NCBI GenBank assembly: GCA_030531085.1
Contig: JAUNOM010000024.1
Coordinates: 1-39,139, forward strand
DNA from: Prevotellaceae bacterium
Lineage (GTDB): Bacteria > Bacteroidota > Bacteroidia > Bacteroidales > Bacteroidaceae
Reading direction: 5' to 3'
DNA: 39,139 nucleotides
Shown: positions 675-33,124 of the stretch, in pieces
Layout: every line of letters starts with the position of its first letter
Position numbering within the stretch: the stretch's first letter is position 1
Position numbers and translations under genes: made by a program
Notes under the pieces: generated by a model
What the model saw: the letters and a program-made list of their open reading frames with translations, nothing else
Told to the model about the DNA's origin: nothing
The model's database searches: none

Positions 675-1577
675 CTATTCAGCTGTACGGTATTCATTCG
701 GTGTGCATCCCACATTCTTCTTGAAGGCCCGGCTGAAATATTGTGGGTATTGGTAGCCCAGTGCGTATGCAATCTCGCTGATAGACTTGCTGGAGTTAAT
801 CAGCATATCCTTTGCGGTGTCAATGATCTTCTGCTGAACATATTCCTGTGCGGACCTGCCCGTCTCCTTCTTAATCAGGTCTCCGAAGTAGTTTGCGGAC
901 AGATGCAGCTGGTCTGCGCAGTAGGCCACTGACGGTGTGCCGTGTGATGATGGCTTTCCGGAGGTGAAGTACCCGTCCAGCAGTTCCTCAAAGCGTGACA
1001 GTATGTCCTTATTGGCCCTCTTGCGTGTTATGAACTGGCGGTCGTAGAAGCGGCTGCAATAGTTCAGGAACAGCTCAATGGCAGATGCTATGATGGTGTT
1101 GCTGTGCCTGTCCATTCCGTTGTTTATCTCATCGTCAATCTTTCTCAGGCAGTCAATGATTGTCTCACGTTCCTGCAGCGACAGGTGCAGCGCCTCGCTG
1201 ACGTCGTATGAGAAGAAGGTGTAGTCCTTTATGTGCCTGCCGAGCTGCGTGCCGCGCAGCAGTTCTGGGCTGAAGTACAGGCACCAGCCCTTGGCATGGT
1301 ATGTGGAGCCGTCGGCAGGATATCCGAATACCTGTCCCGGGGAGATGAACAGCAGGGTGTTCTCCTGATAGTCATACTCCTTTCTGCCGTACTTCAGATA
1401 GTCCGCGCACATCACGTCCTTTAGGAATATGACGTACAGGCCGAAGTTCTTGCGGCAGTTGGGTATTGCTTTGGTAATCCTTGAGCCCTCTATGACATTG
1501 ACATACGGATGGCGGTCCTCAACGCCCCAAAGTTCGTTATAGTCCTTTACGGTCTCTATGTTTACTATTTTGTCCAT
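675..1577 (-). CDS. AraC-family transcriptional regulator
   Basis: A 300-residue protein with an N-terminal cupin-like sensing region (about 1-170) and a C-terminal AraC double helix-turn-helix (about 195-300). The diagnostic second HTH reads ISEIAYALGYQYPQYFSRAF, followed by KKNVGCTPNEYR. It diverges from the operon starting at 1801 and is the obvious candidate to control it, because the first ORF of that operon is a decayed copy of this same regulator. A -7 box lies at 1634-1641 on this strand. The ligand is unknown, but the neighbours suggest a signal linked to redox state or an oxidised small molecule. The family call is secure; the regulatory target is inferred from position. Confidence 0.93.
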   Translation of the reverse strand: MDKIVNIETVKDYNELWGVEDRHPYVNVIEGSRITKAIPNCRKNFGLYVIFLKDVMCADYLKYGRKEYDYQENTLLFISPGQVFGYPADGSTYHAKGWCLYFSPELLRGTQLGRHIKDYTFFSYDVSEALHLSLQERETIIDCLRKIDDEINNGMDRHSNTIIASAIELFLNYCSRFYDRQFITRKRANKDILSRFEELLDGYFTSGKPSSHGTPSVAYCADQLHLSANYFGDLIKKETGRSAQEYVQQKIIDTAKDMLINSSKSISEIAYALGYQYPQYFSRAFKKNVGCTPNEYRTAE

Positions 1578-1800: not shown

Positions 1801-2307
1801 ATGAAAAGGAATATGGACAATGTCATTACGATAGACAGGTTTAACAAGCTCACGGGACGGGAGACACTGCATCCTCTGGTAGGGATAGTGGACCTGTCGC
1901 CGGGCAGGCTGCATGAGGATTTGTGCCAGCCTTGTAATTTCTATGCCCTGATCTGCAATAGCGGCGGCGTAGAGCCTTTCACATCCTTCTGTCTGCTCTG
2001 TCCCGGAGAGATGTTCAGGGTGCCTTCCATGGCCCATGGTGGTGATGGCTGCTATTCAGGTGTGCTGTTTCATCCCGACCTTCTTTGCGACACTCCATTG
2101 GAACGGCATATAGGTGACTACCCGGCACGCTGCAGGTGTCACGGTGGACTGACGGAGCGTGAGCGCAGGATCATATCAACCAGCCTGCGGGAGATAGACC
2201 GTGAGCTGCATCATGCCATAGACCGTTACAGCAGTACAATCATCGTGTCGCACATAGAGCTGCTGCTGAACTATTGTACACGGTTCTGCAGCGAGGGCAG
2301 GGGATAG
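1801..2307 (+). pseudogene. truncated AraC paralogue lacking the DNA-binding domain
   Basis: This 168-residue product aligns along its length with residues 1-190 of the AraC protein encoded on the other side of the promoter region. Shared elements include the start MDN/KIV-I, LERHIGDY versus LGRHIKDY, and IDRYSSTIIVSHIELLLNYC versus MDRHSNTIIASAIELFLNYC. It stops where the paralogue continues into its two HTH motifs. About 15 residues of the cupin barrel are also missing (after residue 50). Either it is a relic, or it is a surviving sensing/dimerisation domain that could interfere with the full-length paralogue. It is the first ORF behind the operon promoter and ends 46 bp before the hydrolase. 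The homology is visible; function or decay is not settled. Confidence 0.7.
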
Positions 2308-2353: not shown

Positions 2354-3436
2354 ATGAGAAACTTATCAAAGAACATGGTCGGTCTGATGATGACCGCCTG
2401 CAGCGGTATGGCAAATGCACAGGCCGCCTTTACGGAAGTTAATGACTTCCACAGTCATAACTCTAACCCCTGGGGACTGGTGTATTCCGGCGCCATTACA
2501 GAGAATGTGAAGGGGCAGGTTAACATCCATCCCATCACGTATGACATGAACGGGCTGAAGATAGCGGCCAATGTGTACACGCCTGCAGACTATAATCCGG
2601 AGAAAGGCTATCCCGCCCTTGTCGTGGCCCATCCTAATGGCGGCGTTAAGGAGCAGGTGGCAGGGCTCTACAGCCAGCGTATGGCGGAGAAAGGGTATGT
2701 CTGCTTGGCCTTTGACGCAGCCTATCAGGGTGCGAGCGAGGGCGAGCCGCGCAGTACGGACAAGCCTGCCAACCGCATAGAGGACATACGCCGTGCCGCG
2801 GACATACTGTTGCAGTATCCCGGTGTGGACGCCTCGCGTGTCGGTATACTCGGCATCTGCGGCGGCGGTGGGTACACCCTGAAGGCGGCGCAGACCGACA
2901 AGCGGTTCAAGGCTGTAGCCACCCTCAGTATGTTCAACACGGGACTGGTGCGCCGCAATGGTTTTCTCGACTCGCAGATGGGCAGTGTACAGGAGCGTCT
3001 GGAGGATGCCTGCGCCGCGCGTCAGCGTGAGGCGCAGGGTGGAGCGCCCGAGTATGTGGGCGATATGAGCGGCGTTACTCCCGAGCAGGCTGCCGCATTG
3101 CCTTTTGACCTGTACCGAGACGGGTATGAATACTACCTGCAGAGCCATGCGCATCCTAACTCAACGTTCCGCTATACCAAGAGCAGCCTTGTGGACCTGA
3201 TGGCCTTTGACGCGGCGGCGGATATGTATCTGATAAACCGTCCGCTGCTGATGATGGCCGGCAGCATTGCCGATACCTTCTACATGACGGAGCAGTGCTT
3301 CAGCCGTGCTATGGGTACGCAGGACAAGGAGCTGTTCCTTATTCCCGGAGCCACGCACATCAAGACATATTACGTGCCCGAATATGTGGATATGGCTGTG
3401 AATAAGCTGACGGAATTTTTCAATGCGAAGATGTAA
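2354..3436 (+). CDS. exported alpha/beta hydrolase, dienelactone-hydrolase type
   Basis: A 360-residue protein with an N-terminal signal sequence (residues 1-24, likely cut after ANA; an alternative lipobox-like MTAC is at 13-16). The hydrolase core begins near residue 55. The nucleophile elbow is GICGGG near residue 167, so the nucleophile is Cys as in dienelactone hydrolases, not Ser. An acid is likely in AGSIADT near 305 and the catalytic His in GATHI near 334. It resembles the E. coli YcjY-like uncharacterised hydrolases. It is second in the operon, followed 37 bp later by a flavodoxin, which suggests it acts in the cell envelope on an ester or lactone linked to the redox proteins. The substrate is unknown. 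Confidence 0.85.
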
Positions 3437-3491
3437 TTCCGGACGGGTTGTAATGTAAATGTAATCACTGTAAATGAAAATATACACGATA

Positions 3492-4139
3492 ATGAAACAT
3501 TTGTTTTTAGTTCCGCTGCTGCTATTGTCACTGACTTGCATGGCGGCGTGCTCTGATGACGGCACGGAAACGAAGAAAACGGCACCGTCAATGGCCGGTG
3601 CGAGTAAGAAACTTGTGGTTTATTTCTCCGCAGAGGGGCATACGAAGGCCGTGGCGGAGCGTATAGTGGAGCTGACAGGGGCCGACATCTACCGCATAGA
3701 GGCTGCAGAGCCGTATGCAAAGAACCCGTATGACGACAGCGAGCGTGTGAAGAAGGAGGCATATAACGACCTGCGCCCTGCGGTGGCGGATATGCCTGCG
3801 GCGGAGATGGTGGCAAGGTATGACACCATTTTTGTGGGCTCTCCGCTGTGGTGGCATCAGCCTGCCATGGTGGTGTGCACATTCCTTGAGGCATACGACT
3901 TGAAGGACAAGGTGGTGGTGCCGTTCTTCACGTACGGCTCTATAAGCTATCTGAACGAGGCCATGCAAAAGATATACAGAATGACACCCCGTTCAAGGCA
4001 TATTCCCGCCACGCTGCCGGAGGACCTTGACCCCGATGACATCACGACTCCGGGCAGACCGGATGATGCGGACATAGATATGCCGGGCAATGCACGCGGC
4101 ACGGAGGCGTGGCTGCGCAGGATTGGTGTTATGAAGTAA
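3492..4139 (+). CDS. lipoprotein flavodoxin
   Basis: A flavodoxin-fold protein with a lipoprotein signal: hydrophobic MKHLFLVPLLLLSL followed by lipobox MAAC (Cys at residue 19). I prefer the ATG at 3492 to the in-frame ATG at 3474, because it begins the signal peptide directly. After a short linker comes the FMN phosphate loop YFSAEGHTKAVAE (S-x-x-G-x-T). The second flavin loop is in VGSPLWWHQPAM and the third near FFTYGS, as in the flavodoxin_4 group. The mature protein should be membrane-tethered outside the cytoplasm, unusual for a flavodoxin, which normally works in the cytosol. The next gene, 28 bp on, encodes a related flavodoxin. The electron partner is unknown; the EFR1 protein downstream is the natural candidate. 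Confidence 0.88.
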   Translation: MKHLFLVPLLLLSLTCMAACSDDGTETKKTAPSMAGASKKLVVYFSAEGHTKAVAERIVELTGADIYRIEAAEPYAKNPYDDSERVKKEAYNDLRPAVADMPAAEMVARYDTIFVGSPLWWHQPAMVVCTFLEAYDLKDKVVVPFFTYGSISYLNEAMQKIYRMTPRSRHIPATLPEDLDPDDITTPGRPDDADIDMPGNARGTEAWLRRIGVMK

Positions 4140-4167
4140 TCGTTATACAGAACAAATATAGAATGAT

Positions 4168-4869
4168 ATGATGAGGAAGAAAGGTATTATTGCGGCCGCC
4201 GTGCTGGTTGTTTCCGCTTGCATAGTGATAGTCTATTGCTGGGCTTCGGGTGGTGATGATGCGCCGGAGGAGGCCGGTGCCATGCGTGCCGTGTCAGAAC
4301 AGCGTGTGAGGACTGTAGCAGGCGGGGCGGAAGGCAAGTCACTGATAGTGTATTTCTCCGTTCCCGAGACCGATGGCGTGGACGCTTCTTCAGGAGCAAG
4401 CCGTGTGATTTCAAACGGAAAGGTTGTGGGCAACACCGAGTATGTGGCTTCTGTCATAGGAAAGGCCACAGGCGGAGACCTCTTTGAGATAAAGACGGTG
4501 CACGCATATCCAGCTTCTCACCAGGCTCTGATAGATGCGGCAAAGACAGAAATAGATGATAACGTACGTCCGGAACTGGCTACGCACATAGAGAACCTGA
4601 AGGACTATGATGTGGTGTTTGTCGGTTTCCCGAACTGGTGGTACGATATGCCTATGTCCCTGTATTCATTCTTTGACGAGTATGACTTCTGTGGCAAGAC
4701 CATTGTACCGTTCTGCACTCATGGCGGCAGCCGTTTCTCGGATGCGGTGAAGACGATACGCGAGATGGAGCAGCAGGCTACAGTCCTTGACGGATATGCC
4801 ATAGCCCGTGACCGTGTGCCAGATTCCGAGGAGGACATACTGAACTGGCTGAAGAGGATAGGGATGTGA
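4168..4869 (+). CDS. membrane-anchored flavodoxin-family protein
   Basis: A 233-residue protein with an N-terminal hydrophobic anchor (residues 5-25, IIAAAVLVVSACIVIVYCWA) and a flavodoxin_4 domain from about residue 58. The FMN phosphate loop is split by an insertion of about 25 residues between YFS (near 63) and VVGNTEYVA (near 90), an arrangement found in flavodoxins sold as 'family proteins' in gut anaerobes. Conserved FVGFPNWWYDMPM and FCTHGGSRF supply the isoalloxazine loops. It lies between another exported flavodoxin and a Tat-exported flavodoxin-ferredoxin. The Cys in SACIVIV could be read as a lipobox, so anchor versus lipoprotein is open. The role is presumed electron transfer or quinone/nitro reduction in the envelope. 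Confidence 0.85.
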   Translation: MMRKKGIIAAAVLVVSACIVIVYCWASGGDDAPEEAGAMRAVSEQRVRTVAGGAEGKSLIVYFSVPETDGVDASSGASRVISNGKVVGNTEYVASVIGKATGGDLFEIKTVHAYPASHQALIDAAKTEIDDNVRPELATHIENLKDYDVVFVGFPNWWYDMPMSLYSFFDEYDFCGKTIVPFCTHGGSRFSDAVKTIREMEQQATVLDGYAIARDRVPDSEEDILNWLKRIGM

Positions 4870-4890
4870 GACATGAAATAATGATGGAGT

Positions 4891-5832
4891 ATGGAAGAAG
4901 ATAGGAAGATAACGCGCAGGAGTGCGCTGAAACGGATGGGCTTGGCCATAACGGGTGCGGCGGTGGCGTCATCAGGTCTGCTGTCACTGACATCATGCGG
5001 CAAGGGGAAGGCACGGCGCATCATGCTCTATTTCACAGGAACAGGCAACTGTCTGTATGTGGCGCGGCAGCTGGGTGGCGCTGATGCCGAGCTGTTGAGC
5101 ATTCCGCAGCTGGTGAAAAAGGGCGGATCGGTGGAGATAGAGGCGGACGAGATAGGCATAGTGTACCCCATATACGGGCACATGCCGCCAAACATGGTGC
5201 GACAGTTTATCAGGAAGGCGCGGCTGAAGGCGGATTATCTGTTTGCCGTACTGACATACGGCAACAGGAAATGCAATGCGGTGGAGATATGGGATGACAT
5301 ATCCCGGAGTGCAGGAAAGCGTTTTGACTATATCAGTACGCTAATCATGGTGGATAACTGGCTGCCAAACTTCGACATGAACGAGCAGGTGCTGATAGAC
5401 AAGCACATTCCCGAGAACCTGCGGAAGATAACAGCAGACCTGGCGGAGAAGAAGCGCTGGCACGAGGCTGTGACAGAGGAGGAGCGGCAGCAGCATCAGG
5501 AATTTATGCAAAGGACAGGGATGGACGCGGAAAAAGGCTTCGCATTGAGGAGCGAGGACTATTTCACTGTCACGGAGGCCTGCATAGGCTGTGGAGTATG
5601 TGTGTCGGTATGTCCCCATGGTGACTATGAGCTTGCTCCGCAGGGGGTGAGGATGCAGGGGGACTGTGAGTTCTGCTTTGCCTGCATACAGAACTGTCCG
5701 CAGAAGGCCATACAGTTCTTGAAGAATGAGAAGGACCCGTTGTTGCGTAACGGGGAGAAGAACCCTAACGCCAGATACCGTAATGAGCACGTGTCACTGA
5801 TGGACATAAAGATGGCTAACAGCCAGTTTTGA
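4891..5832 (+). CDS. EFR1-type flavodoxin-ferredoxin with Tat signal
   Basis: A 313-residue fusion. Residues 8-14 (TRRSALK) form a twin-arginine motif, followed by a hydrophobic stretch and lipobox LTSC with Cys36, so the folded, cofactor-loaded protein is probably exported by Tat and lipidated. The flavodoxin domain starts with YFTGTGNCLYVA (FMN loop, near residue 48). Near the C-terminus are two 4Fe-4S motifs, CIGCGVCVSVCP and CEFCFACIQNCP. EFR1 family proteins are normally cytoplasmic. Here Tat export fits the two exported flavodoxins upstream and suggests an electron relay outside the membrane. The start at 4891 is the one that places the Tat signal at the N-terminus; the gene follows its neighbour by 21 bp. 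Confidence 0.88.
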   Translation: MEEDRKITRRSALKRMGLAITGAAVASSGLLSLTSCGKGKARRIMLYFTGTGNCLYVARQLGGADAELLSIPQLVKKGGSVEIEADEIGIVYPIYGHMPPNMVRQFIRKARLKADYLFAVLTYGNRKCNAVEIWDDISRSAGKRFDYISTLIMVDNWLPNFDMNEQVLIDKHIPENLRKITADLAEKKRWHEAVTEEERQQHQEFMQRTGMDAEKGFALRSEDYFTVTEACIGCGVCVSVCPHGDYELAPQGVRMQGDCEFCFACIQNCPQKAIQFLKNEKDPLLRNGEKNPNARYRNEHVSLMDIKMANSQF

Positions 5833-5873
5833 GCCTCTGCGGTGATTGGTGAACATGAGGTGAGTAATAAAAA

Positions 5874-6983
5874 ATGAACAGGAATATGAAGGATTTTATT
5901 TTCAGAAACGATACGAAGCTCCTCTTCCGTAATGACATCAGGAACACTGTTGCGGAGATATCAGGAGGGCATAAGGTAATGTTTGTATATGGAGGAGGCT
6001 CCGTGTACAGGAACGGTTGTCATGATGACATCGTGGAGGCATTGGGAAAGGCCGGTATCCCGTTCGTGGAGTACGGAGACTCATCAAGGGAGCTCTGTAA
6101 GATACAGGAGGGCATACGGCAGGCAAAGGCCAATGGGGTGACAATGATTATAGGTGCCGGGGGAGCGAGTGTCATGGACAGTGCGAAGCTCATGGCGTTC
6201 GGCTTCTATCACGAGGACACTCTGTGGGACTATGTCAAGGGAAGAGACCCGTATGGACTGCAACGCCTTCCGATTGCGCTGATACCCACATATCCTTCAA
6301 GTGGTTCAGAGAACGGACTGGGGGCTGTATCGGTGGACTCAAGGACGGGAGATTACGGAACGGCATACGGTATTGCGGCGGACTATGCGCTCCTTTGTCC
6401 GAAATACTCGCTGACACTGGACAGAAAGATGACCGCATACACGGGACTGGTGACACTTGTGCAGCTGTCGGCCTGCATTCTCGGGGACAGGAACAGGATG
6501 TCATACGATGCCGGCATATTATATATCCGGAATGTGCTTCAGGCTACAAGGACCCTGATGGAGAACCCCGACGACCTTGATGCGAGGGGAGTCATCATGC
6601 TGGGCGCCTCACTCTCCACTTCATCCAGAATGGGTATAGGAAAGGAGGAGACTTACGCATACGACATATATGAACTGGAGTTCCTGCCCGAGAAGCTGTT
6701 CGGGAGCTCATACCGTAGAAGTCTGACATCCGTATTTCCAAGGTTCCTGAAAGCGATGGGCAGACATCATGGGGAGGATATAAGGAAATACTACATGGAT
6801 GCCTTTGGATACGACAAGTCAATAGAGGAGTCCTCCAAGGAACTGACAACGCTGTTCGAGAGTTTTGGAGTGGATATGTATTTTGATGGTGATATAACCC
6901 GCAAGCAGGTTGACAGCGTCCCATGCCACACAGAACTCTCCGCCGATGAGGTATTCGATATGATGCAGTCTCTGGTTAGATGA
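5874..6983 (+). CDS. iron-alcohol-dehydrogenase homologue without metal ligands
   Basis: A 369-residue protein of the group III (iron-containing) alcohol dehydrogenase family, nearest in layout to butanol dehydrogenase/YqhD. The nucleotide loop GAGGASVMDSAK (94-105, family GGGSxxDxxK) and PTYPSSGSE are kept. In an ungapped comparison from memory with E. coli YqhD, the four metal ligands D194, H198, H267 and H281 correspond here to V193, Q197, Y266 and Y280. The protein therefore should not bind Fe or Zn in the usual way. It has no signal sequence, unlike the four preceding gene products. It may be a cofactor-binding pseudoenzyme or catalyse metal-free chemistry. It starts 41 bp after the EFR1 gene and is the last gene before a strong terminator. 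Confidence 0.8.
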   Translation: MNRNMKDFIFRNDTKLLFRNDIRNTVAEISGGHKVMFVYGGGSVYRNGCHDDIVEALGKAGIPFVEYGDSSRELCKIQEGIRQAKANGVTMIIGAGGASVMDSAKLMAFGFYHEDTLWDYVKGRDPYGLQRLPIALIPTYPSSGSENGLGAVSVDSRTGDYGTAYGIAADYALLCPKYSLTLDRKMTAYTGLVTLVQLSACILGDRNRMSYDAGILYIRNVLQATRTLMENPDDLDARGVIMLGASLSTSSRMGIGKEETYAYDIYELEFLPEKLFGSSYRRSLTSVFPRFLKAMGRHHGEDIRKYYMDAFGYDKSIEESSKELTTLFESFGVDMYFDGDITRKQVDSVPCHTELSADEVFDMMQSLVR

Positions 6984-7310: not shown

Positions 7311-10300
7311 ATGTCTATTTGGAATAAAATTATAAAGTCTTTTGGCGTAGCTGATGTTGGCGACCGTGATGATGAGGTGTCCCGTGATGCCTCTCGTTAT
7401 GCATTGGTTGATGCAGAGGTTGGAATTAATGACCATAAGGTTCATGACATAGGATCATTACGTTGGGATGGGGCAGTGTATCATGAGTCGTCCAAGGTTA
7501 AGCTGATGGAGTTTTTGCATGATGTGGACTATGTGTGCGGTCATAACATCATTCATCATGATTCCCTTTATCTTTTTGGAGAGAATAATCAACATTGGGC
7601 ATTTGTAGATACGCTCTATATGTCACCTTTATTGTTTCCTGAACATCCTTATCATAAGCTTGTAAAGGATGACAAATTGATGAGTGAACAGATGAATAAT
7701 CCCGTTAACGATTGTATGAAGGCAAGAGACCTGCTGATGGATGAGATATCACGTTGGCAGTCATTGCCAAAGGAAAAACGTTCTATATTCGCTTCATTAT
7801 TGTCGGGGCAAAAAGAATTCTATGGCTTTCTTGAAATGGTCGGTGCGGAATGTTGTAAGGCTGCTCTGGTGGATTTGATTAAGGTGACATATAAAGGTCT
7901 GATATGCCAAAATGCGGATGTCGGGAGACTTGTGTCAGAGTGGCCTTGTGAACTTGCTTATGCATTAGCATTGATAGACACAACGGATTACCGTTCAATT
8001 ACACCTGCATGGGTTCTGTATAACTATCCCGCTGTTGAGAATGTTGTGAGGATACTTCGCCATTCACAATGTAGTGAGGGATGTGACTACTGCAATTCTG
8101 CATTTGATATCTTTAAAAATCTAAAGAGTTTCTTCGGATATGAACAATTTAGGACCTATGATGGTGAACCACTTCAGGAGAAAGCTGCAAAGGCAGCTGT
8201 AGACGGTAAGTCCTTATTGGCTATTTTCCCAACTGGAGGTGGAAAGTCACTGACGTTTCAGTTGCCGGCATTTATGGAAGGACGTTCTGTTCATGGATTA
8301 ACCGTGGTTATCTCTCCTTTGCAGTCTCTGATGAAGGATCAGGTGGACAACCTGTCCGATAAGGGAATTACTGAAGCTGTGACTATAAACGGATTGTTAG
8401 ATCCTATAACCAGAGCGGTTGCTATACAAAGAGTGCAGAGTGGTGATGCCTCATTGTTGTATATTGCACCGGAGATGCTTCGCTCAAAGACTATAGAACA
8501 GATATTACTGGCACGGCATATAGTACGTTTTGTTATAGATGAGGCACATTGTTTCTCGTCATGGGGACAGGATTTCAGAGTGGACTATCTTTATATTGGT
8601 AAATTTATTCATAATTATCAATTAAAAAAGAAATGTAAGGACGCTATTCCTGTGTCTTGCTTTACAGCTACAGCAAAGCAAAAAGTGGTGCAGGATATTT
8701 GTGATTATTTCAAGCGGACACTAAACCTCGACCTTGAACTGTTTGCCTCGTCCGCATCACGTACCAATTTACACTATTCTGTTATTCACGCAGATACGGA
8801 TGAGGAAAAGTATATAAGACTACGTTCGCTGATAGCGGAGTCATCATGTCCTGTAATAGTGTATGTGTCGCGTACTAAGCGTACTGTAGAATTGGCAAAC
8901 AGACTCTCACGTGATGGATACAAAGCTCTTCCGTTTAATGGACGTATGGACGCAGATAAGAAAATAGTTAACCAGGATGCCTTTATGTCTGATAATGTCC
9001 GGGTCATTATTGCAACTTCTGCCTTTGGTATGGGTGTGGACAAGAAGGATGTTGGACTGGTTGTGCATTATGACATTTCAAACTCTCTTGAGAATTATGT
9101 ACAGGAAGCTGGTAGGGCAGGGCGTGATCCTCATTTAGAGGCGCGTTGTTTCGTCTTGTATTGTGATAATGATTTGGATAAACACTTTATATTGCTGAAC
9201 CAAACAAAGTTGAGCATTAGTGAGATACAGCAGGTATGGAGTGCTGTGAAGCAACTTACAAAGATACGGACGAGGGTATGTTGTTCTGCGTTGGAGATAG
9301 CTCGGACAGCCGGTTGGGATGATACTGTTTATGATATAGAGACACGTGTGCGGACAGCCTTGGCTACTCTTGAGCAGGGAGGATATATAGAAAGAGGTAA
9401 TAATGTGCCTCATGTGTATGCGACAGGTATCACTGTGAAAAATATAGATGAAGCCAGAAAACGCATTACAGAATCTGTACTGTTCGCAAAAGATGATGTA
9501 GAGAACGCTGTAAGAATTATCAAATCATTGATTTCACAAAAACATATAGCCAAGGCTGTGGATTCAGAGGCAGAGTCGCGTGTGGATTATCTGGCAGACA
9601 TTTTGGGTATCACTAAAGCAGAGGTTGTGTCGGCTGTGGAAAGAATGCGGCAGGAAGGAATATTGGCTGACTCGAGGGATATATCAGCATATTTGCAGGA
9701 TGCTGGAGATTCAGAACGTAAGTCACGTTTGTTATTGGATCGCTTTGCCAGACTGGAACAATACATCTTAAAGAATATTCCCGATGAGGCTTTGCATATT
9801 TCGTATAAACAATTGAATGATAATGCGCAAAAGGATGGTGTTGCCACTTCAAAGGAGAAGGATATTCGTACTTTACTGTATTTCCTTACTATTAAAGGAT
9901 ATATGCGTAAGAAAGAAGATGCCAATCATAACATGGAAGTGGTGAGACTTGTGGATATGGAGGCTACTATTCGGAGGTTTCAGAAGCGATTGGAGATAAG
10001 TAGATTTACAGTAGAATGGCTTTATAGACAGGCTCATACGATGACGGAAAAGGATAATAATGCTATTCAATTTTCTGTTGTGGAGTTGTATAACGATATC
10101 AAAGCGAATGTACAGTCGTTATTTGGTTTTATGGACAATATACAACTGGAGGATGTAGAGGAGGCTCTTTTATATCTTTCAAAGATTGGAGCCTTAAAAC
10201 TGGAGGGTGGTTTCCTGGTTCTATATAATGCAATGAGCATTCGCCGTATAAAAGAAACCAAATCAAGGTTCAAACAAGACGATTATCGTATGCTCAATGA

Positions 10301-12194
10301 ATTTTATAAACAGAAGATTCAGCAGATTCATATAGTAGGTGAATATGCCAACCTGATGGTGAAGGATTATAATGCGGCCATACAATATGTGCAGGATTAT
10401 TTTCAGATGGATTATAAGCGCTTTATATCCAAATATTTTAAGGATGAACGTCTTTGTGAGATACAGCGTAATTTGACTCCGCAAAAGTATAGCCAACTAT
10501 TCGGGCAACTGTCAGAGAAACAGATGGAGATAATCTCGAATAAGGAAGCACGCTGTATTGTGGTGGCTGCAGGGCCAGGTAGTGGAAAAACGCGTGTTTT
10601 GGTGCATAAACTGGCGTCGTTATTACTGTTAGAGGATGTTAAGCATGAACAGCTACTTATGTTGACATTCTCGCGTGCGGCGGCAACAGAATTCAAACAG
10701 CGACTAATGGGGTTGATAGGCAATGCTGCACATTTTGTGGAAATAAAAACTTTTCATGCGTATTGTTTTGACTTGATAGGCAAAGTTGGTAATCTGGAAG
10801 ATGCGGATGATGTCGTGGCAAAGGCTGCGGAGATGATAAAAGAGGGGGAGGTTGAACCTAATAGAATAAGTAAGACTGTGTTAGTGATAGATGAGGCACA
10901 GGATATGAGTGCAAAGGAGTATGCGCTGGTAGTGGCTTTAATGGAGGCTAACGAGGAAATGCGCGTTATAGCAGTGGGGGATGACGATCAAAACATTTTT
11001 GAATTTCGTGGGGCTGACTCCTGCTATATGCATCAGTTGATAGAGAAGACGCATGGACAATTCGTGGAGATGACAGAGAATTACCGTAGCTCTCAGAATG
11101 TGGTGAACTTTTCCAATTCTTTTGTAAAGGGAATCACTGGTAGAATGAAAAGCACACCGATAATATCTAAAAGATATGATGCTGGTTGTGTTTGTGTAAC
11201 ATCTTACTCCTCACAATATATGTATAAATCACTTGTAGAGGATTTGTTGCGTAAAAAAGGAGAAGGGAGTATATGTGTGCTAACTCAAACAAATGAAGAG
11301 GCTGTTATACTTGTGGCATTATTACGCAAATATGGTTTAAAGAGTAAATTGATACAGAGTATGGATGGCATAAGATTTTATAATATGGTAGAGGTGAGGT
11401 ACTTCTTGAAATATATTAGTGCAAGGCTGAACTCGCCTCTAATAACGGACACATTGTGGGATGATGCAAAACAGGCGACATTCAGAATGTACCAACACAG
11501 TCATAGTTTATCTTATTTACAGAGGTGCCTGGAGATTTTTGAACGGATTAACCGTGCTAAATATCATAATGACTTTAAAGAGTATGTCTTTGAATCTGCT
11601 ATAGAGGATTTTAGTGATGTTACAGGTGCGGATGTGGTGGTATCTACAATTCATAAGGCTAAAGGACGGGAGTTTGATGATGTGTATATGTTGGTAGATG
11701 GGGGCTATCTATTGACGAATGCTCTTATGCGGAGACTGTATGTCGGCATGACACGAGCACGTAATAGACTGTTTATATATAGTAACAGTAAATATTTTTA
11801 TGGTTTGAAAACGGATTATTATCTTGTAGACAACAATGATTACGAAATGCCGGATGATGTGGTTCTGCAATTATCTCATAAGGATGTACATTTAGGTTTT
11901 TTCAAGGAAAGAAAAAGACAGATATTATCTTTGCGGTCTGGTGATAAGTTATATTTGTCTGGTGATATATTATATTCATGTGTAGATAATAATGCTATTG
12001 CGCGATTGTCTAAAAATATGCAAGGGAAATTGTCATTATGGGAGGAGAAGGGATATAATGTCAAGTTGGGAACTATACGTTTTATAGTGGCTTGGAAACC
12101 AAAAGATGCGCCAAAGGATGAACCTCAGACGGCTGTTGTATTGGCAGATTTGCTGTTGGTAAAGTCTGATTTGTTTAAGAAAGATATCAAATAA
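7311..12194 (+). CDS. exonuclease-like / RecQ / UvrD fusion helicase
   Basis: A 1627-residue multidomain protein. Residues about 25-140 look like a DEDD 3'-5' exonuclease: VDAEVG (near 33), GHNIIHHD (near 78) and NNPVND (near 129), where the usual His appears to be Asn. A RecQ helicase follows: FPTGGGKS (near 305), IDEAHCFSSWG (near 409), CFTATAKQ and YVQEAGRAGRD (near 598). After a long helical linker comes a UvrD/PcrA-like SF1 helicase: AGPGSGKT (near 1088), VIDEAQD (near 1194), GDDDQNIFEFRGA, ENYRSS and VGMTRARNR (near 1477). Fusing two 3'-5' helicases with a nuclease suggests processing of stalled or recombining DNA, or defence. The gene stands alone with its own promoter and is visibly more AT-rich than the redox operon before it, suggesting separate acquisition. 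The domain calls are secure; the biological role is not. Confidence 0.92.
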   Translation: MSIWNKIIKSFGVADVGDRDDEVSRDASRYALVDAEVGINDHKVHDIGSLRWDGAVYHESSKVKLMEFLHDVDYVCGHNIIHHDSLYLFGENNQHWAFVDTLYMSPLLFPEHPYHKLVKDDKLMSEQMNNPVNDCMKARDLLMDEISRWQSLPKEKRSIFASLLSGQKEFYGFLEMVGAECCKAALVDLIKVTYKGLICQNADVGRLVSEWPCELAYALALIDTTDYRSITPAWVLYNYPAVENVVRILRHSQCSEGCDYCNSAFDIFKNLKSFFGYEQFRTYDGEPLQEKAAKAAVDGKSLLAIFPTGGGKSLTFQLPAFMEGRSVHGLTVVISPLQSLMKDQVDNLSDKGITEAVTINGLLDPITRAVAIQRVQSGDASLLYIAPEMLRSKTIEQILLARHIVRFVIDEAHCFSSWGQDFRVDYLYIGKFIHNYQLKKKCKDAIPVSCFTATAKQKVVQDICDYFKRTLNLDLELFASSASRTNLHYSVIHADTDEEKYIRLRSLIAESSCPVIVYVSRTKRTVELANRLSRDGYKALPFNGRMDADKKIVNQDAFMSDNVRVIIATSAFGMGVDKKDVGLVVHYDISNSLENYVQEAGRAGRDPHLEARCFVLYCDNDLDKHFILLNQTKLSISEIQQVWSAVKQLTKIRTRVCCSALEIARTAGWDDTVYDIETRVRTALATLEQGGYIERGNNVPHVYATGITVKNIDEARKRITESVLFAKDDVENAVRIIKSLISQKHIAKAVDSEAESRVDYLADILGITKAEVVSAVERMRQEGILADSRDISAYLQDAGDSERKSRLLLDRFARLEQYILKNIPDEALHISYKQLNDNAQKDGVATSKEKDIRTLLYFLTIKGYMRKKEDANHNMEVVRLVDMEATIRRFQKRLEISRFTVEWLYRQAHTMTEKDNNAIQFSVVELYNDIKANVQSLFGFMDNIQLEDVEEALLYLSKIGALKLEGGFLVLYNAMSIRRIKETKSRFKQDDYRMLNEFYKQKIQQIHIVGEYANLMVKDYNAAIQYVQDYFQMDYKRFISKYFKDERLCEIQRNLTPQKYSQLFGQLSEKQMEIISNKEARCIVVAAGPGSGKTRVLVHKLASLLLLEDVKHEQLLMLTFSRAAATEFKQRLMGLIGNAAHFVEIKTFHAYCFDLIGKVGNLEDADDVVAKAAEMIKEGEVEPNRISKTVLVIDEAQDMSAKEYALVVALMEANEEMRVIAVGDDDQNIFEFRGADSCYMHQLIEKTHGQFVEMTENYRSSQNVVNFSNSFVKGITGRMKSTPIISKRYDAGCVCVTSYSSQYMYKSLVEDLLRKKGEGSICVLTQTNEEAVILVALLRKYGLKSKLIQSMDGIRFYNMVEVRYFLKYISARLNSPLITDTLWDDAKQATFRMYQHSHSLSYLQRCLEIFERINRAKYHNDFKEYVFESAIEDFSDVTGADVVVSTIHKAKGREFDDVYMLVDGGYLLTNALMRRLYVGMTRARNRLFIYSNSKYFYGLKTDYYLVDNNDYEMPDDVVLQLSHKDVHLGFFKERKRQILSLRSGDKLYLSGDILYSCVDNNAIARLSKNMQGKLSLWEEKGYNVKLGTIRFIVAWKPKDAPKDEPQTAVVLADLLLVKSDLFKKDIK

Positions 12195-25130: not shown

Positions 25131-26654
25131 ATGCCCAAAGCATCCCTCTCCCTCGCAAAGAAAAGCGACAGCCAAGGCGAGTGCCGCATACTCGTCAGGC
25201 TCGACATAACGCGCACCAACCGCCCTCAGTTCAAGTCTCCCGTTTCGGTAAGCCCGCCCCATTTCGTTGACGGCTCGATAAAGATACCGTCCCGAGGCAG
25301 ACTTAACATTGCCCTTCGCGAATCGCTCCTCCGAAAGAAAAAGGAAATAGAGGCTTTCGTTGCCTCAATCTCGGCCATAGCGATGGCTTTGCCGGAAGAA
25401 GCGCAGACAAGGAAGGACATTCTGGAGGTGTATGAGACGGTGAGGACGGTCAACCCGTCCGAAATCAGCCGCACCACCATCATAGCAAAGAAGAAGGAAC
25501 AGGCGGAAATCAATGCGGAACTCGTCAGGGAGTTGCAGGAAGCCCACAGACCGGATGTGCTGGAGTATATAAGGAAGCGTATAAGGGGCATGGAAAACGG
25601 TGACATCAAGCGCAAAGGCAACAACTACAAGAAAGGGACGCTGCACGCATACAAGGTGTCGCAGACGGTCCTCGAAGCGTTCGCCAAGACACACCCCTTC
25701 AACTGGGAAGACATAGACGAGCAGCTCATAGACAAGTATGTGCAGTATCAGGAGGAGCTCGGCTACATGAAGAAGTCCGTGAACAAGCATCTTGCCTCAC
25801 TTTCCGCCATGCTCAATGCCGCTTTCAAGGACGGCTGCCGCTTCAAGACTTCCGTACTGAGCCATTTCCCGAAGTTGAACGTGACAAGGGATGACAAGGT
25901 GGAGGAAATATATCTCACGGAAGCCGAACTGCAGGCATTGTATGAGCTCCCGTTGGAGGATAAGGGCGAGGATATTGCCCGTGACATATTCCTTGTGGGC
26001 TGCTATACCAGCCAGCGTTATTCCGACTACTCACGCATCAGGAAAAGCAATGTCAGTTTCCATGACGGAATAGGCATCGTCACGCTGACACAGCAGAAGA
26101 CGGACACGGAAGTCTCCATCCCGATACTCAACGACAACCTGATAAGTATATTTGAAAAGTACGGCTACGACCTTCCTGTTATAAACAACAGTACGCTGAA
26201 CAGGAAAATCAAGGATGTCATCAGGAGACTTTCGGAAAACGTGCCGAGCCTGAGAGAAGAAATACCGACAAGGCTGCGCCTTGACCAAATCAAGATGGAA
26301 GGTGAAGGACGCGTGTCCTTCAAACGCAACAGCCGTGGCGAGGTGCTGATTCCCAAGTATGACCTTGTGACCTCGCACACTGCAAGGCGCACGGGCATCA
26401 CCCTTATGTACCTCAGCCGCATACTGGACACGCACGAAATGATGTCGATAAGCGGGCACAAGACAGAGAGCGTATTCCATGACTACATCAAGCTCAGCGG
26501 TATAGAACTTGCCACCGGCATAGCGAAGAAGGTAGCCAAGGCAAAAAGCGAGGCGGAGGTGAAGTCCATGCTGCTTAAACAGTTCGAGAGCATGTCATCG
26601 GAACAGCTTGCACGGCTTCTTGAACTGGCGAACCGGCAATCACCCCATTTGTAA
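25131..26654 (+). CDS. tyrosine recombinase / integrase
   Basis: A 507-residue tyrosine recombinase. A long N-terminal part (residues 1-150) is followed by a SAM-like core-binding domain (about 155-250) and a catalytic domain. Catalytic residues: Arg in TSQRYSDYSRI (near 294), HTARRTG (near 416), GHKTES (near 442) and the nucleophile Tyr in FHDYIK (near 451). It likely inserts and excises the surrounding mobilizable element. Its promoter contains a repeat TGTGACATT that is shared with the excisionase-like gene 5.9 kb downstream. The following unknown gene starts 33 bp later, probably co-transcribed. Confidence 0.93.
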   Translation: MPKASLSLAKKSDSQGECRILVRLDITRTNRPQFKSPVSVSPPHFVDGSIKIPSRGRLNIALRESLLRKKKEIEAFVASISAIAMALPEEAQTRKDILEVYETVRTVNPSEISRTTIIAKKKEQAEINAELVRELQEAHRPDVLEYIRKRIRGMENGDIKRKGNNYKKGTLHAYKVSQTVLEAFAKTHPFNWEDIDEQLIDKYVQYQEELGYMKKSVNKHLASLSAMLNAAFKDGCRFKTSVLSHFPKLNVTRDDKVEEIYLTEAELQALYELPLEDKGEDIARDIFLVGCYTSQRYSDYSRIRKSNVSFHDGIGIVTLTQQKTDTEVSIPILNDNLISIFEKYGYDLPVINNSTLNRKIKDVIRRLSENVPSLREEIPTRLRLDQIKMEGEGRVSFKRNSRGEVLIPKYDLVTSHTARRTGITLMYLSRILDTHEMMSISGHKTESVFHDYIKLSGIELATGIAKKVAKAKSEAEVKSMLLKQFESMSSEQLARLLELANRQSPHL

Positions 26655-32677: not shown

Positions 32678-33124
32678 ATGAAACACGAAGATACTTCCAA
32701 TCAGGAATCCGGGCAGGAAAAGCCCGTTATAAGGCGTGACAAGGTGGTGGTCACCAAAGTCACTGAACAGGAGTTTTCTCAGATTAAAAGCACCGCCGGG
32801 CAGTGCGGCATGACACGCAGCGACTTCATACGGGCAAGGGCACTCAATTACAGACCGAGACAGCGGCTTTCGGTTGCAGAGGTGGACGGTCTGAGGCTGC
32901 TTGCGGCGTGCAGGACGGACATGGTGAACTTCGCCAACGCCCTGCACGGATTGAATGATGACGAGAAGGTGCGCCTTTTCCGCCATCAGCCCATCATGCT
33001 CGAATGGTACGAGAAGGTGGCGCGGGTGACAGACCACGTTACCGACTTCCTGCAGTCCGCACAGAAGGCGAACAGCTATCCGGCAGGGACAACGGATGAA
33101 GAAGCAGAGGAGAATGCCGTATGA
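32678..33124 (+). CDS. MobC-like relaxosome accessory protein
   Basis: A 148-residue protein. Residues 20-55 (RRDKVVVTKVTEQEFSQIKSTAGQCGMTRSDFIRARAL) match the ribbon-helix-helix of MobC/TraY-like accessory proteins, followed by a helical part (LLAACRTDMVNFANALHG) that may contact the relaxase. Its stop overlaps the relaxase start (ATGA at 33121-33124), so the two are translationally coupled. It probably binds the origin of transfer and helps open it. Confidence 0.85.
   Translation: MKHEDTSNQESGQEKPVIRRDKVVVTKVTEQEFSQIKSTAGQCGMTRSDFIRARALNYRPRQRLSVAEVDGLRLLAACRTDMVNFANALHGLNDDEKVRLFRHQPIMLEWYEKVARVTDHVTDFLQSAQKANSYPAGTTDEEAEENAV

Follow-up and report, generated by a model that had tools for sequence, protein, structure and literature searches.

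Why would a bacterium encode, side by side and with signals for export, two flavodoxins and a flavodoxin-ferredoxin protein, i.e., soluble low-potential carriers of the cytoplasm? The question is raised by a locus in the genome of a Prevotellaceae bacterium (GenBank assembly GCA_030531085.1, contig JAUNOM010000024.1), of which a stretch of 39,139 nucleotides, hereafter the window, was analysed as a whole. At positions 2354 to 6983, an earlier sequence-only reading had noticed the consecutive genes of a secreted DLH-type hydrolase (DLH), a lipoprotein flavodoxin (FlvA), a membrane-anchored flavodoxin (FlvB) and a protein of the EFR1 family (EFR1), and had proposed that they form an extracytoplasmic flavin/4Fe-4S electron relay. 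The observation is real, conserved and better founded than a reading of the letters alone could show. In our view the operon would be the exported portion of an electron relay in the envelope, inducible and serving to reduce exogenous compounds, a reading to which we give a probability of about 0.6.

The arrangement proved exactly as described, with gaps of 37 bp between DLH and FlvA, 28 bp between FlvA and FlvB and 21 bp between FlvB and EFR1 (Table 1). The signals are also present and recur in homologues, namely a cleavable Sec peptide (ANAQA) for DLH, the lipobox MAAC of FlvA, a single N-terminal hydrophobic segment anchoring FlvB (where VSAC may alternatively be read as a lipobox) and the TRRSALK and LTSC of EFR1. 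The latter protein scores above the cut-off of family NF038196 and carries the eight cluster cysteines; its cluster and P-loop residues are intact. A fifth gene of the interval, which had gone unmentioned, encodes a protein resembling iron alcohol dehydrogenases (Fe-ADH-like). These five open reading frames (ORFs) and two AraC-family genes upstream are all open and tightly packed.

Window-type EFR1 was found in 21 of 301 genomes of the family (E below 1e-60). Seventy loci encoding it were assembled from the window, 20 stretches of family genomes and 49 named genome contigs, some of which overlap; the 20 stretches represent 19 of the 20 EFR1 genomes besides that of the window (G000), with a second copy taken from G182, whereas G106 and the second EFR1 copies of G001, G031 and G054 were not taken. 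Once 19 loci had been removed because their EFR1 matched a retained one at 95% identity or more, 51 non-redundant loci remained. Export signals were judged throughout by eye and with a home-made script for hydropathy, lipoboxes and twin arginines. A twin arginine precedes the EFR1 core in 50 of the 51 loci: the script recognised RRxx[LI] in 47, accompanied by a lipobox in 42, and three more were read by eye, one in a split gene with the signal on its first piece (L044) and two with a longer linker (L073, L074). In an alignment of 45 EFR1 rows, the eight cluster cysteines and T51, G52 and N53 are invariant, and R9 and R10 are found in at least 90%. On the contrary, no twin-arginine translocation (Tat) signal was seen by eye before the flavodoxin core of 20 cytosolic EFR1 controls, which are more distant matches from related genomes and most of which have a Met at that core. 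In a tree built from 48 Tat rows, after 3 short ones had been dropped, and the 20 cytosolic ones, a branch with support of 91/84 has the Tat rows on the same side; this value is below the tool's star, and some cytosolic rows drew long-branch warnings. Between loci, the proportions of nonsynonymous (pN, 0.10-0.34) and synonymous differences (pS, 0.67-0.91) indicate strongly purifying selection, dS being mostly saturated. An annotation artefact or chance is thus ruled out as the source of these signals, since they recur in homologues, are unseen in the cytosolic EFR1s and belong to genes under purifying selection. These export signals are ancestral.

How flavin mononucleotide (FMN) reaches a flavodoxin exported through Sec had been left as a puzzle, for which FlvB offers a likely answer while FlvA still has none. 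Both proteins are related to solved flavoproteins (3klb, 4ici, 4j8p), but FlvB has, by sequence, a beta1-alpha1 insertion of 23 residues between YFS and GNTEYVA, compared to 2 residues between YFS and GHT in FlvA. In this insertion lies DASSGAS, which fits the flavinylation pattern D..[ST][SG]A[ST]. Its spacing is the same as that from Asp223 to Thr229 in the motif of the NqrC structure (PMC4348036). Two Flavodoxin_4 proteins with a motif-bearing insertion at this place became flavinylated upon co-expression with ApbE, the Ser or Thr of the motif being required (Huang et al., 2024; PMC11334425). FlvB shares with this group a domain above the cut-off, the insertion, the motif, an export signal and an ApbE in the genome, and it is predicted to be covalently flavinylated at Ser78. 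With its long loop, its motif and a genomic ApbE, it could therefore leave unfolded via Sec and gain its FMN outside.

The same features are found in relatives. In the 51 loci, 28 different flavodoxin ORFs score over 60 bits, and the script could read the first strand of 26; the exceptions are L073:4893 and a truncated one in L082, and a flavodoxin of L034 was left uncounted as this locus is a near-copy of L033. All 26 carry an export signal, and the motif is present in 7/7 long-looped flavodoxins vs 0/19 others, against a background of one occurrence in 207,535 amino acids (648 other ORFs of the EFR1 loci). Two further looped relatives read DTSSGAS and DAKTGAS, and the pattern is absent from four more distant matches. 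In the window genome, it also fits proteins that look by eye like NqrC (DAITGAT) and RnfD (DAETGAT), and, in an RnfG-like protein, just a stretch of the C-terminal tail (DATTGAT). As a side observation, an open frame of an NqrC-like FMN_bind protein (L155:946-1824) begins, by eye, with a rubredoxin-like stretch. As for FlvA, its lipobox is followed by SDDGTE, which resembles the surface-lipoprotein signal SDDDD described for Bacteroides fragilis (PMC5080379), and the protein may for this reason be exposed on the cell surface.

The sequence-only reading had named the lack of a conserved neighbourhood elsewhere, or of export signals in all homologues, as grounds for abandoning the relay. Signals are found in nearly all homologues, as seen above, and the neighbourhood recurs, with one or more recurring partners no further than 9 kb from EFR1 in 46/51 loci vs 1/20 cytosolic controls; this contrast is partly by construction since the Tat loci themselves supplied the list of partners, and flank lengths vary, AraC hits were counted from 50 bits upward and the rows are related. 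The single control partner is an AraC gene, with nothing else. Eight EFR1 loci have AraC alone, and another partner is found in 38/51 vs 0/20. In a comparison by the same search over mostly similar lengths, flavodoxins occur in 8 of the 20 family-genome Tat-EFR1 loci vs none of the 20 controls. Within 9 kb, the 51 loci encode AraC (30), aldo/keto reductase (AKR; 20), Flavodoxin_4 (17), exported AKR (14), Tat 4Fe-4S AKR (14), a NapH-NapG-like membrane polyferredoxin (polyFd; 11), ABH3 (8), Fe-ADH, CMD and flavin reductase (7 each), ABH6 and an SBF transporter (5 each), DLH (4) and FMN_red (3). The nearest full relative, a Phocaeicola metagenome-assembled genome (MAG; L037, same stretch as L081), has its partners clustered in the order FlvB-FlvA-CMD-DLH-AraC2, divergent from AraC1-EFR1-polyFd-AKRfes-AKRsec. 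Separately, an open frame of L085 (17830-18309) has a DLH-like start running into an exported AKR, and is either a recombination hybrid or an assembly joint. Thus the relay is supported as a reading, but the four genes first singled out are probably incomplete alone: polyFd, Tat 4Fe-4S AKR, exported AKR, CMD-cupin and hydrolases lie elsewhere in the genome or near EFR1 in relatives. A stand-alone four-gene system is thought unlikely, the partner set being larger and scattered.

The likely electron source of the relay is polyFd. It has about 500 residues, the first part matching NapH and the second NapG, and shows by eye CxxxCP twice, a hydrophobic segment of RRSF type in the middle and a tail rich in cysteines. 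Membership in the NapGH quinol dehydrogenases was rejected (77.9 vs 213.05 for NapH, 69.9 vs 269 for NapG), so that it only resembles such modules, which also include PceMN. It is similar to them in serving, by gene order, a Tat-exported Fe-S enzyme, and differs from them as a single fused protein with an AKR as partner. For Sulfurospirillum, a NapGH-like module was proposed as the link by which electrons of quinol reach its organohalide reductase (PMC8865925). In the window genome polyFd is located on contig C22, in the row given in Table 1 (its small membrane protein looks by eye like a transporter S component and has no Pfam match). Of 18 polyFd loci (the window genome and 17 of the 208 other matching genomes, mostly high-scoring), 17 have the Tat AKR next to polyFd and 9 include TatC in the stretch. 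Among genomes with Tat-EFR1, 20/21 encode polyFd vs 189/280 others (Fisher p 0.006, kinship ignored), and the lone one without it, G199, is only 69% complete. Given this wide distribution, polyFd seems to be a general source of electrons in the envelope, which EFR1 islands would tap.

Table 1. Features of the operon and its upstream genes in the window, with the polyFd row of the same genome (locus L130).
Feature	Positions	Strand	Description
AraC1	675..1577	-	full-length AraC-family regulator divergent from the operon; HTH_18 80.4 bits, AraC_binding 25.8 bits
AraC2	1801..2307	+	AraC1-like sensor half without helix-turn-helix; clusters with AraC1
DLH	2354..3436	+	Sec-exported alpha/beta hydrolase (YcjY / PA2218-like); PF01738
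FlvA	3474..4139	+	lipoprotein Flavodoxin_4, non-covalent type; start perhaps 3492; PF12682 92.3 bits (cut-off 24)
FlvA lipobox	3540..3551	+	MAAC, residues 23-26
FlvB	4168..4869	+	membrane-anchored Flavodoxin_4, predicted covalently flavinylated; PF12682 91.6 bits (cut-off 24), PRK06934 224.1 bits (cut-off 172)
ApbE flavinylation motif DASSGAS (predicted)	4381..4401	+	FlvB residues 72-78, acceptor Ser78, in the beta1-alpha1 insertion
EFR1	4891..5832	+	Tat-exported lipoprotein: flavodoxin domain + 2x[4Fe-4S]; NF038196 177.9 bits (cut-off 75)
EFR1 Tat signal and lipobox	4912..4998	+	TRRSALK 4912-4932 (residues 8-14), LTSC 4987-4998 (residues 33-36)
Fe-ADH-like protein	5874..6983	+	PF00465 86.4 bits; cytosolic, no signal peptide visible
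polyFd row	L130:8649-13419		polyFd, Tat-lipoprotein 4Fe-4S AKR, DUF1893, small membrane protein, TatA (by eye), TatC

Other parts of this wider cassette are found in the same genome. Contig C57 bears a Sec-exported gene that resembles by eye a CMD-cupin, followed by a lipoprotein flavodoxin (L133:1393-1971), so that all three Flavodoxin_4 matches of the genome are predicted to be exported. Contig C7 encodes three AKRs, one of them exported and fused to a DUF4440/SnoaL-like domain (L131:8158-9474), as well as an ABH3-like protein with a lipobox-like start. Plasmids similarly carry relatives of FlvB (85 records, all below 60% identity), of which nine were opened, the loop reading leaving out the flavodoxins of L168, L169 and L171. 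Those of Klebsiella and Citrobacter encode together a looped DGFSGAS flavodoxin, CMD, a cupin and an exported DLH (63-64% identical to that of the window), as in the Bacteroidales set, whereas DUF4405 and an adjoining "heavy metal" two-component system replace EFR1, polyFd and AraC. The Klebsiella cassette also encodes the alpha/beta-fold hydrolase ABH6 (58%), along with another flavodoxin, whose signal contains RR. A Pseudosulfitobacter plasmid groups a flavodoxin, an AKR and DUF4405, and in Pusillibacter a flavodoxin, an AKR, a cupin and a CMD (as annotated) are found next to a LysR gene. DUF4405 is described as a heme protein resembling MsrQ and often paired with flavinylated Flavodoxin_4 (PMC11334425), a pairing that recurs in these plasmid relatives. 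We infer a single cassette with inside and outside forms, the latter travelling with a transmembrane electron donor, which would be DUF4405 in Proteobacteria and polyFd/EFR1 in Bacteroidales.

EFR1 itself is rare in the genus, with one 41% relative (G281) among the 21 same-genus genomes besides G000, and only distant matches of about 30% in five further ones. Six plasmid records match it, among which the EFR1 of Paraclostridium and Ilyobacter align only from residue 45 onward. In two MAGs labelled Proteobacteria (L073, L074), Tat-EFR1 is accompanied by flavodoxins and flavin reductases, the best segments being 53-60% identical; this is due either to transfer between phyla or to mislabelled bins.

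How might such a relay work? AraC1 would sense a compound and switch on the operon. Electrons from menaquinol or a cytosolic donor would cross the inner membrane via polyFd and pass to the EFR1 lipoprotein, whose Tat signal is consistent with export in a folded, cofactor-loaded state. EFR1 would then reduce FlvB, anchored after unfolded export and presumably flavinylated outside by ApbE, and FlvB in turn FlvA, perhaps at the cell surface. The final acceptor, the weakest step of the scheme, would be some reducible compound from outside, probably a carbonyl, a quinone-like compound or an oxidised small molecule, in whose handling the exported hydrolase and exported AKRs would take part. In Escherichia coli, the YqhC-YqhD-DkgA aldehyde response combines an AraC-family regulator with Fe-ADH and AKR genes, all cytosolic. 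This parallel in regulation, together with the exported hydrolases, AKRs and CMD, is the reason for choosing such acceptors. The most likely use would thus be a reductive detoxification or modification of exogenous compounds outside the cytoplasm, more than respiration. The further suggestion of the sequence-only reading, that the hydrolase releases an oxidised substrate for the relay, stays without support.

Several observations weigh against this scheme. The electron path between the parts is drawn from gene order only, polyFd lies outside the window and, being found in 209 of the 301 family genomes, serves more than EFR1. The relay accounts neither for the NADPH of the exported AKRs nor for the FMN supply of FlvA, which has an ordinary, motif-less loop. 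No apbE was found in the cluster of FlvB, the sole ApbE match of the genome being on contig C57 and the window on C37. The flavinylation pattern is not strict, as the likely site of the RnfG-like protein reads DAITAST, and an Enterococcus gilvus relative has a long loop without motif. The flavodoxin L073:4893, next to EFR1, has no export signal and looks cytosolic; this protein and one flavodoxin of L034 exhibit a shorter, different insertion without motif. The EFR1 of L075 lacks both the N-terminal extension and the twin arginine, and the second EFR1 of L072 has QR instead of RR. Finally, five of the 51 loci have no recognised partner, and the flavodoxins accompany EFR1 in only 17, some flanks being short.

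Could the relay rather serve to breathe? Electrons would then be disposed of to an abundant gut acceptor, such as a dietary or host metabolite, with conservation of energy and not for detoxification. Flavinylated proteins are indeed described in extracytosolic respiration (PMC8238504), and in organohalide respiration an exported reductase was proposed, by analogy with nitrate reduction, to be fed by NapGH-like quinol oxidation (PMC8865925). Nevertheless, the operon includes no recognised terminal reductase, its regulator and its reductase, hydrolase and CMD companions resemble a stress or xenobiotic set, and its presence is sporadic (21/301 genomes), so that we hold this explanation for rather unlikely. 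The plasmid cassettes, with their "heavy metal" two-component system and MsrQ-like DUF4405, point in another direction, toward the repair of oxidative damage in the envelope or a defence against reactive electrophiles, in which damaged periplasmic proteins or lipids would be re-reduced as by RclABC or MsrPQ. AraC-type regulation as in RclR would agree with this, and YqhC is likewise of AraC type. However, no Msr or thiol-disulfide family was found in the clusters common to at least four loci, where unlabelled neighbours were not family-searched, and exported hydrolases and AKRs point to small molecules; such a role is about as doubtful as respiration.

The possible surface exposure of FlvA might instead reflect a handling of flavin or iron, the exported flavodoxins storing or reducing either for uptake, and one plasmid relative is indeed found near ferritins, and a further one has an iron ABC transporter and a member of the ferritin family close by. 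A study of iron starvation (PMC10434189) concerns a different flavodoxin, FldA. As the clusters common to at least four Tat-EFR1 loci, in which unlabelled neighbours were not family-searched, include neither TonB receptor nor iron transporter, we regard this function as improbable. Still less credible is a partial cassette acquired horizontally and left without function in this genome: although EFR1 is rare in the genus, mobile-element genes occupy the right part of the window and polyFd and AKRs are located at other loci, all genes are intact and under purifying selection between loci, and partners are present elsewhere in the genome.

How new is such a relay? The claim of an undescribed system held for the combination and not for every part, the flavinylated Flavodoxin_4 being already in print. 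ApbE-associated Flavodoxin_4 proteins, reported for the most part from Firmicutes and with apbE as a neighbour (Huang et al., 2024; PMC11334425), share with FlvB the PF12682 domain, the motif-bearing beta1-alpha1 insertion and the extracytosolic site. FlvB differs from them in that it comes from Bacteroidales, is unlinked to apbE and is accompanied by an AraC gene, the Tat-exported EFR1 and another flavodoxin, which has no motif. Similarly, the EFR1 group of the window has the flavodoxin domain and the two [4Fe-4S] clusters of NF038196, to which it adds the Tat signal and lipobox. The AraC-type gene and the relatives of Fe-ADH and AKR are reminiscent of the YqhC-YqhD-DkgA response, but AraC1 was not identified as YqhC and the Fe-ADH-like protein lacks the metal ligands; a classical NapGH or YqhD system is ruled out by curated cut-offs. 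The flavinylated flavodoxin is thus of a known kind, whereas its setting is new, as is the Tat-EFR1 group with its NapHG-like partner. Among publications judged by titles and the starts of abstracts, no account of an exported EFR1 or of the present cluster was found.

A bolder proposal, which we offer tentatively and as possible rather than probable, is that gut Bacteroidales possess an undescribed cytochrome-free route for electrons across the membrane, from polyFd via Tat-EFR1 to flavinylated and surface flavodoxins, powering exported versions of normally cytosolic reductases and interchangeable with the DUF4405 cytochromes of Proteobacteria. If the envelope relay holds, soluble low-potential carriers of the cytoplasm would have been relocated outside in gut bacteria, where they work as a relay, which would account for the retention of flavin by a carrier after Sec export and extend the flavinylation of flavodoxins by ApbE to Bacteroidota. 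It would also point to an unrecognised route by which compounds from the diet, from drugs or from the host could undergo extracellular reduction by the gut microbiota.

The remaining genes of the operon have their own peculiarities. DLH is closest to the solved structures 5xb6 and 2hdw (YcjY, PA2218), and its counterparts in L081 (84%) and in the Klebsiella plasmid (64%) both have signal peptides by eye; a UilS-type lactonase was considered and rejected (NF047920 60.2 bits, far under the cut-off of 400). The Fe-ADH-like protein is similarly rejected as a YqhD-type iron alcohol dehydrogenase (PRK15138 70.3 vs cut-off 645). Aligned with YqhD-like relatives, it has V, Q, F and Y in place of the expected metal ligands D/H/H/H, and the same four replacements are found in its relatives from L032 (Butyricimonas) and L072 (Parabacteroides). 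It is therefore not an ordinary alcohol dehydrogenase, and would be either a conserved pseudo-enzyme or an enzyme with a new chemistry.

AraC2 gave no Pfam match in a profile search, yet a truncated counterpart, 65% identical, exists in L037/L081, and its pN of 0.23 vs pS of 0.80 indicates purifying selection. It is probably the first gene of the operon and perhaps a modulator of AraC1. Promoters of Bacteroidales are unlike the sigma-70 type.

To the right of the operon, a mobile element is probably present between 25131 and 37676, as integrase genes are found there at 25131, 34950 and 36462, with a PHROG family member of unknown function at 33121. Closer to the operon, positions 7311 to 12194 encode a protein of 1627 residues that joins, by eye, RecQ-like and UvrD-like helicase motifs.

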